Positions 1 to 10,485 of a DNA stretch of 10,485 bases are shown in pieces. Source of the stretch: Candidatus Saccharimonadota bacterium (GTDB lineage: Bacteria; Patescibacteriota; Saccharimonadia; Saccharimonadales; Saccharimonadaceae); NCBI GenBank assembly GCA_009778015.1, contig WRKS01000009.1:1-10485 (forward strand). Reading direction: 5' to 3'. A program made the translations under genes and the position numbers. Each line of letters opens with the position of its first letter. The first letter of the stretch is position 1. Under the pieces are notes generated by a model. That model was not told the DNA's origin, searched no databases, and worked only from the letters and a program-made list of their open reading frames with translations.

Positions 1-126
1 GCTGCTGCGAATATCGGCAAGCGCAGTGCTGGTTATTTCTGCTAACGCCGCACCAAAGAATAAAGAGTTATTAACCAATCCACCTCTATTTATTGAGTTC
101 TCGTTACTCACGCCGAGTTGGCCAAC
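1..126 (-). CDS. Partial paralogous C-terminal cassette, start side at the palindrome, continues off the left edge
   Basis: Read on the minus strand from 126 down to 1, this frame is open for all 42 codons. It begins VGQLGVSNENS and continues through NNSLFFGAALAEITS. It aligns directly with the plus-strand cassette that starts at the same dyad (VGQLGVDNTQ, then NNALFFGSATSEILS), so the two are paralogs pointing away from each other. Beyond the shared palindrome the DNA has diverged while the protein stays similar, which argues for selection on the protein. No start codon can be assigned: sequence upstream of the palindrome on this strand is the antisense of the other cassette. I therefore read it as a C-terminal segment lacking its own N-terminus, either a silent cassette or one side of a rearrangement junction. 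The rest lies outside the window. Function is unknown. Confidence 0.55.
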
Positions 127-398
127 TCGGCGTGGATAACACCCAAATACAAACTGGTAACCTATCCAATAACGCGCTATTCTTTGGTAGCGCAACATCG
201 GAGATCTTATCTCGCGATATTTATCAGGGCGGTTGGAACGACGATGATGGAGGCGTAGTTGCTTCAACCTGGCCTTGGCAATATCGCGGTGGAGCTTCAG
301 GTACTGTTCCAGTAAACTCTGGTGTTTTTGCTTATCGTCGTGTTGCGGGCGCCTCCAGCTGGGAGCTCTCCCACCGCACCATACTATTAGGCTACTAA
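93..398 (+). CDS. C-terminal cassette of a surface-type protein; TTG start doubtful
   Basis: An open frame runs from 75 (stop at 72-74) to the TAA at 396-398. The only candidate start is a TTG at 93 with no Shine-Dalgarno sequence. The residues before the palindrome (75-121) are antisense to the conserved coding sequence of the minus-strand paralog, so they are unlikely to be a real N-terminus. The meaningful part starts at about 117 (VGQLGVDN). It carries NNALFFGSATSEIL, a Gly/Asp-rich stretch, RGGASG, then NSGVFAYRR and ends SHRTILLGY. The RGG...GVFA...R pattern near the C-terminus vaguely resembles phage-tail and FGE-sulfatase/C-type-lectin-fold proteins; this is a weak resemblance. The last ten codons and the following bases are identical to the end of the cassette at the right edge of the window. 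It is probably a promoterless C-terminal module, expressed only if joined to an upstream constant part. Confidence 0.5.
   Translation: MSSRYSRRVGQLGVDNTQIQTGNLSNNALFFGSATSEILSRDIYQGGWNDDDGGVVASTWPWQYRGGASGTVPVNSGVFAYRRVAGASSWELSHRTILLGY
109..134. repeat. Perfect 26-bp palindrome at the junction of two divergent cassettes
   Basis: Each half is CACGCCGAGTTGG read inward, and all 13 pairs match with no spacer; the symmetry axis lies between 121 and 122. In both directions it encodes RRVGQLGV in the frame of the cassette leaving it. Paralogous protein similarity continues outward on both sides, although the DNA identity stops at the palindrome edge. It could be a recombination site, like the sfx sites between shufflon cassettes, or the scar of an inverted duplication or chimeric joint. 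Confidence 0.85.
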
Positions 399-457: not shown

Positions 458-532
458 TGGCTCCCCGGACTGGACTCGAACCAGTAACCTCGAAGTTAAC
501 AGCTTCTTGCTCCACCATTGAGCTACCGAGGA
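458..532 (-). tRNA. tRNA-Asn (anticodon GTT)
   Basis: On the minus strand the sequence folds as a 75-nt cloverleaf with encoded CCA (458-460). The acceptor stem pairs TCCTCGG with CCGGGGA (one T-G pair), followed by discriminator G. The D stem is GCTC/GAGC. The anticodon loop CTGTTAA places GTT at 498-500, giving asparagine, with U33 and A37. The anticodon stem has four good pairs and an A-G at its base. The T arm is ACTGG, TTCGAGT, CCAGT. Confidence 0.95.
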
Positions 533-10364: not shown

Positions 10365-10366
10365 AC

Positions 10367-10415
10367 CTCACCCCCCACATACATTTAGTAGCCTAATAGT
10401 ATGGTGCGGTGGGAG
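10367..10415 (-). repeat. 49-bp repeat, right copy (inverted relative to 368-416)
   Basis: Its reverse complement is identical over 49 bp to 368-416. It holds the last codons and stop of the right-hand cassette plus 18 bases of 3' flank. The two copies face each other across about 10 kb. Confidence 0.9.
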
Positions 10416-10485
10416 TAGATGTTACTGGTGCCGCCGGCTTGAATCGCTGCTATAAACGCAAATACTCCAGCAGCAATGCCCCCTT
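10385..10485 (-). CDS. Partial C-terminal cassette, start off the right edge
   Basis: On the minus strand the last 32 codons are open and stop at TAA (10387-10385). The peptide includes AAGVFAFIAAIQ and ends SNIYSHRTILLGY. It aligns with the left cassette (NSGVFAYRRVAG...SHRTILLGY) but is two residues longer in the middle and differs at many third positions, so it is a diverged paralog and not a recent duplicate. The final block, including the untranslated flank, is identical to the left copy, pointing to recent exchange or constraint at the 3' boundary. The bulk of the gene lies beyond the window. Function is unknown. Confidence 0.65.
   Translation of the reverse strand, partial: GGIAAGVFAFIAAIQAGGTSNIYSHRTILLGY

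Follow-up and report, generated by a model that had tools for sequence, protein, structure and literature searches.

Why should two related reading frames, both lacking an N-terminal part, meet head to head at a perfect palindrome in a Saccharibacteria genome? The locus lies at the start of the window (the whole stretch of DNA analyzed here, 10,485 bp), which represents the entire contig C9 of a genome assembly of 542,425 bp in 87 contigs (72% complete). The perfect 26-bp palindrome CACGCCGAGTTGGCCAACTCGGCGTG at positions 109–134 is composed of two inverted copies of a 12-bp 5′ core, CAACTCGGCGTG, at 109–120 on the minus strand and 123–134 on the plus strand, separated by a GC spacer at 121–122. 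As the original prediction had stated, both strands leaving the palindrome encode paralogous frames with VGQLGV and NN(A/S)LFFG in each, and the palindrome proved to be one of many such junctions in this genome. Translation of the minus strand revealed the 5′ part of a silent cassette at 1–126, the 3′ part of which is lost at the contig start and a near-copy of which is present on contig C39. The plus strand carries a silent cassette without N-terminal part, VGQLGV…SHRTILLGY*, at 117–398 (coding 117–395, stop 396–398). The earlier statement that neither frame has a start codon on its own side was correct in that the upstream sequence is the antisense of the partner, but an in-frame TTG is present on both sides (ORFs 93–398 and 1–267), within that antisense.

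Three further features of the window, absent from the earlier description, extend the pattern to its other end. A repeat search identified a 49-bp 3′ repeat of the cassette family at 368–416 on the plus strand, which covers the last codons, the stop and downstream bases, and an inverted second copy at 10367–10415 on the minus strand. The latter terminates a third silent cassette (10365–10485, minus strand), of which the 3′ end is present and the remainder is cut by the contig end. Folded as DNA, the 49-nt repeat has some stability (−9.5 kcal/mol, z −3.3; z −2.2 for a 43-nt cut), and the single-strand fold of the palindrome (−12.9 kcal/mol) is normal for a palindrome of such kind. The setting is intergenic, with a tRNA-Asn gene (458–532, minus strand) as an ordinary neighbor just beyond the right cassette. 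A 738-aa protein with MBG domains and a Cys-Pro-rich stretch (596–2812) adjoins the cassette pair, and RecR is also encoded in the window.

A protein search of the source genome identified 57 cassette matches on 21 of its 87 contigs, scattered among ordinary, unrelated genes, so the further copies that had been anticipated do exist. A cassette comprises the last ~90 residues between the 12-bp 5′ core (encoding QLGV) and a 3′ core of ~41 bp, which covers HRTILLGY, the stop and some bases after it. Across 26 contigs or contig stretches, picked mostly for cassette content (175,462 bases), we counted 60 5′ cores (at most one mismatch), 57 3′ cores (at most three substitutions) and 52 cassettes with both. 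Ten perfect palindromes of at least 26 bp occur in these bases, every one of them at a cassette junction, where about 0.04 palindromes of even 22 bp or more would be expected (4^-11 per centre). By position, 34 of the 57 cassettes form 17 head-to-head pairs, in which the cores are 2 bp apart in 13 cases, 3 bp in two and 24 and 31 bp in two; both cassettes are complete in 14 pairs of the 26 stretches, and the partner's core is visible beside two further cassettes at contig ends. Convergent neighbors were found three times, 186–337 bp apart, and the 26 stretches contain no complete tail-to-tail pair less than 150 bp apart.

These cassettes appear not to be expressed on their own. In the stretch from the nearest upstream stop to the cassette, 29 of the 57 have no in-frame ATG, GTG or TTG, 22 have GTG or TTG only, and six have an ATG; for these six, free-standing small proteins are unlikely but conceivable. 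An AGGAGG-like site precedes a start in one of the 57, and the median open stretch upstream is 15 codons. No constant N-terminus was seen adjoining any of the 57 cassettes, and with the constant region as query the sole silent match was one cassette's own start. By a rough ORF rule, in which ORFs of at most 250 aa were set aside if their overlap with a unit exceeded 30 bp, none of 40 units lies wholly within an ORF. Several units are only 1–6 bp from the end of a neighboring ORF, and loosely called ORF ends overlap two of them (C1:3040 by 223 bp and C51:3450 by 57 bp; other overlaps are at most 16 bp). Among 44 contig ends examined, a non-random choice of contigs, ten lie inside a cassette or its 3′ repeat (C5, both ends of C9, C11, C20, C25, C27, C39, C41 and C55).

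Several copies bear signs of movement. Positions 1–137 of the window match C39:1153–1289 in 134 of 137 bases, with three transitions, and the right partners of the two left cassettes differ. The right end of the window is identical to C2:1639–1759 over 121 of 121 bases and is then followed by a different flank. On the same contig, C2:1383–1753 (L061:1383–1753) appears to be a head-to-head pair with its centre deleted and the two inverted 3′ repeats left. An assembly cause is conceivable for these single cases on C39 and C2.

Codon analysis of 54 cassettes (three cut by contig ends were dropped) separates the ends from the body. At the ends, CTC and GGC are used in 53 of 53 cassettes each, GTG in 51 of 53, CAC and CGC in 54 of 54 each, ACC in 53 of 54, and CTA, TTA and GGC in 54 of 54 each. 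Synonymous choice is free at conserved residues of the body, for example at a glycine encoded by GGT in 26 cassettes, GGC in 23, GGG in four and GGA in one; codon entropy is 0–0.23 bits at the end codons versus 0.6–2.4 bits at conserved body residues. The variable part, which differs at all bases including free third positions, is thus flanked by two cores, of 12 bp and ~41 bp, that show DNA-level conservation with near-zero synonymous change, which indicates that the ends are held at the DNA level and the body at the protein level.

The body is also under purifying selection. None of the 57 matches contains an internal stop in a search that read through stops, and the sense frame of the aligned cassettes has no stop in 5031 codons, versus 166–404 in each of the other five frames; the sequences were cut at the first stop in this count, yet all 54 reach the C-terminal Gly or Gly-Tyr. 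From 300 sampled pairs, of which 123 were not usable, dN was lower than dS in all 177 usable ones (medians 0.74 and 2.12). The simplest explanation for such selection on pieces that seem unexpressed is that they are at times expressed via a complete gene. Similarity between cassettes in the 5′ part is uncorrelated with that in the 3′ part (Mantel r 0.012; a value as high arose in 413 of 1000 permutations). Mosaics would give this result, but so might saturation.

A constant N-terminus ending at the half-site, as the original prediction had envisaged, is indeed present elsewhere in the genome. With a homologous gene of a member of the same genus as query (P0002 of genome G002, cassette end removed), we obtained one long match, on contig C25, a gene of 728 aa up to the contig end that is 62% identical to the G002 gene. 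Its N-terminus is hydrophobic (by eye) and is followed by the constant region and by the cassette start, where the gene ends in …GGGLVYSLTQLGANDRPSIANGALA; the contig stops 41 bp past QLG. Around the cassette start, this gene shares 17–20 bp with eight silent loci and about 10–11 bp with the palindrome pairs. It reads QLGA, versus QLGV in all 53 silent cassettes having the site, and the 41 bp available past QLG have no match beyond the core among the silent cassettes of the 26 stretches, which together argue against a recent copy of any silent cassette seen. No complete gene carrying a copy of a silent cassette was seen in the 72%-complete genome. The 3′ end of the C25 gene was also sought, without success, via alaS (named by eye), its downstream neighbor in G002; alaS lies on C74, with a cassette pair further upstream. 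Contig C67 carries a further N-terminal paralogue of the C25 gene (L115:3263–4078), truncated at a contig end. A single expression site is therefore an assumption, given this paralogue and the incomplete genome.

The C-terminal domain is weakly FGE- or C-type-lectin-like in sequence. Pfam FGE-sulfatase was matched in three of 11 homologues, below the cut-off in both scores inspected, and solved structures gave one match, sulfatase modifying factor 2, at E 0.2; a search of solved structures with the cassette gave none. A lectin-like fold is suggested by these weak matches together with kinship to DGR targets (see below), and the protein is probably located on the cell surface. A structure model of P0002 from 11 sequences had a mean pLDDT of 37.6 and was useless.

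Taken together, we consider it probable that the cassettes form a dispersed bank of silent C-terminal donors for one probably surface-located, lectin-like protein, similar to the pilS copies of Neisseria. Copying would be unidirectional, from a silent cassette to the complete gene via the two short ends that they have in common, and would alter the surface that the protein exposes, much as happens to pilE with pilS donors. The palindrome might be a mere result of two 5′ ends meeting, or it might aid the start of exchange. For ordinary homologous recombination the shared 5′ end is short, which counts against a donor bank. The available text of PMC3240598 describes DGR homing with short 5′ identity of 8 bp or more, with a later qualification, so an RT-based route of transfer is possible.

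The distribution of relatives brings DGRs into consideration on other grounds as well. Matches were found in nine of 100 genomes searched (source included) and, at 1e-6, in 14 of 394 genomes of the family, with no more than 13 candidates scored per genome; scans of genome contigs and viral contigs with the cassette alignment confirmed no relative. In three relatives (G055, G006 and G017) the matching domain is a DGR variable region; self-BLAST for template/variable pairs located 18 of 19, 16 of 16 and 23 of 24 mismatches, respectively, at adenines of one copy. According to the part of PMC8144416 available, one DGR clade is restricted to Patescibacteria. G002 has four dispersed DGR template-like loci with shared flanks (L119, L120, L121 and L122); their differences inside the repeat are mainly at adenines (by eye), and counts that include the flanks are mixed. 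A TATAAT-like sequence was noticed by eye ahead of some of these loci.

The source genome itself has one match to RVT_1, an RT fragment at the start of C38. Among the RTs of relatives that were compared, it is nearest to those of G002 and G003 (47% and 42%), which adjoin another, FISUMP-type, kind of DGR target with mismatches at adenines in 22 of 22 and 18 of 19 cases. The end of the fragment recurs exactly further along the contig (42 bp; L139:404–445 and 1862–1903). No template repeat was found in the source genome, and its cassettes vary at all bases and at third positions.

A second set of cassettes exists in another genus. Genome G127 gave 62 matches at E ≤ 10 (26 below 1e-3), and the G055 gene as query gave 66. 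Two of the latter are full-length genes; of the remainder, two represent the N-terminal and 62 the C-terminal part. This set of about 60 cassettes is dispersed (stretches L176–L195 and L205–L224) and has fixed ends of its own, a 5′ core TCCTCTGGGTGGTCGGGGGC and a 3′ core GGTTTTCGTGGGG, which occur together in 65 places on these 40 stretches; the 65 include one complete gene and four template-like loci, and two of them contain stops. By the two-core rule there are four head-to-head pairs, with spacers of 51–52 bp, and two tail-to-tail neighbors, 24 and 133 bp apart. Cassettes also appear by eye to stand tail to tail across a TGTTATATAACA palindrome (L182:2563–2921 and L185:310–664). The silent cassettes share a fixed ..GTGGGG at their end. 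The complete gene of G127 (its contig C1, 3294–5531) ends in GFRGVVVIRP* beside recA (named by eye) and is followed by a hairpin with an 11-bp stem (by eye), resembling the hairpin that, in the accessible text of PMC3240598, is required behind a DGR target. Three pieces match this gene, for the most part in the region upstream of the cassette: one at 99.3% over 152 bp, another at 95.7% over 184 bp and the third at 85.5% over 165 bp.

Of the alternatives to a donor bank, the one that survives best holds that the cassettes are alternative DGR templates, or misplaced cDNA of a variable region, and that an RT copies them into the complete gene. The same domain family serves as an adenine-mutated DGR variable region in three relatives, four template-like loci are dispersed in each of G002 and G127, and the fixed ends and the three gene-like pieces of G127 would suit such an origin. 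So would the mismatch rates of 36 G127 cassettes to their nearest template-like copy (0.57 at A, 0.38 at C, 0.29 at T and 0.24 at G; 42 of the 62 matches were aligned, and two without anchor and four template-like ones were left out), although these mismatches are enriched at A and not confined to it. Against it, the body in the source genome varies at all bases including third positions, the C38 RT fragment is nearest to RTs of a different DGR type, the cassettes have little sequence in common past the 3′ core, where a template RNA would require it, and G127, 64% complete, has no RVT_1 match. We regard this reading as rather unlikely.

The arrangement at the palindrome had originally been likened to a shufflon, and a classical one, with a site-specific recombinase inverting segments at the 12-bp core, would account for the inverted cores of the 17 head-to-head pairs. 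The genome also contains one XerC/D-like gene (C3:1431–1955) with a cassette just upstream at C3:752 (L079:752–1030). The cassettes, however, are spread over 21 contigs among unrelated genes instead of forming one array beside an N-terminus, which adjoins none of the 57. A dedicated recombinase nearby, also proposed, did not materialize: PF00239 was matched in none of the four genus members searched (the source assembly being 72% complete), and the PF00589 (XerC/D-like) match is single in all four, two of which have no cassette match. What stands of the proposal is a set of cassettes of the variation type in the genome of a CPR bacterium (Saccharibacteria); a strict shufflon is quite improbable.

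We give equally little credence to functionless dispersal, in which the units would be MITE-like or cDNA insertions without a donor role. Their scattering and uneven outer boundaries would fit, as would the short inverted CTAACC(C)TCACC that some of them carry at both outer ends (by eye) and the deletion derivative on C2. The retention of both cores in 52 cassettes, the freedom from stops and the purifying selection on copies that seem not to be expressed speak against it. Finally, an MDA or assembly chimera at the palindrome, raised at the outset and in keeping with contigs that often end within cassettes, is very unlikely and deserves hardly any weight given 17 junctions with different flanks and partners, a near-identical left cassette joined to two different partners and carrying three substitutions, and head-to-head pairs in G127 too.

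A donor bank and a DGR ancestry may also be combined. In a scenario that we advance tentatively, as a less likely possibility, an ancestral DGR RT would have scattered diversified variable-region copies, which were then selected as an archive and copied back via short ends of the DGR-homing type, independently in the two genera of the source genome and G127; the head-to-head pairs would then have arisen as by-products of the copying or would take an active part in it. Genomes of Saccharibacteria are very small, and most of these organisms live on other bacteria. To keep about 57 cassettes for varying one protein, which presumably faces the host bacterium or phages, is a large outlay for such a genome. 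The donor bank would join retroelement hypermutation and templated cassette copying in the same protein family of sister lineages, and how one diversity mechanism turns into the other would become testable by long-read sequencing.

No report of silent cassettes in Saccharibacteria was found among titles and abstract openings, which does not prove that none exists. R64 pilV shufflons have alternative C-terminal segments and inverted short cores; different from them, the cassettes described here form no contiguous array, have no adjacent constant gene and have no dedicated recombinase that we could find. In Gracilibacterium, the available text of PMC6851277 describes a different, repeat-based hypervariable gene. 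Cyanobacteria encode remote paralogues of DGR variable proteins (PMC7517822), and the accessible part of that study likewise indicates that relatives of a variable lectin domain lie scattered within a single genome; those are genes, whereas the present ones are pieces without N-terminus and with fixed DNA ends. DGRs with C-type-lectin-fold targets share with our case the protein family and, in relatives, the use of the C-terminal segment as variable region, but the source genome stores its variation in many diverged coding cassettes and not in an adenine-specific manner. Similar to pilS and pilE of Neisseria, the silent copies are 5′-truncated, presumably promoter-less and placed at various loci, and the constant N-terminal region is confined to the putatively expressed gene. 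In the Neisseria system, one-way transfer depends on RecA, RecO and RecR, the last of which the window happens to encode. Neisseria has 19 silent copies, whereas about 57 occur here, single or head to head at a palindrome, and they belong to an unrelated protein of the DGR-target family, into whose gene they would be transferred.
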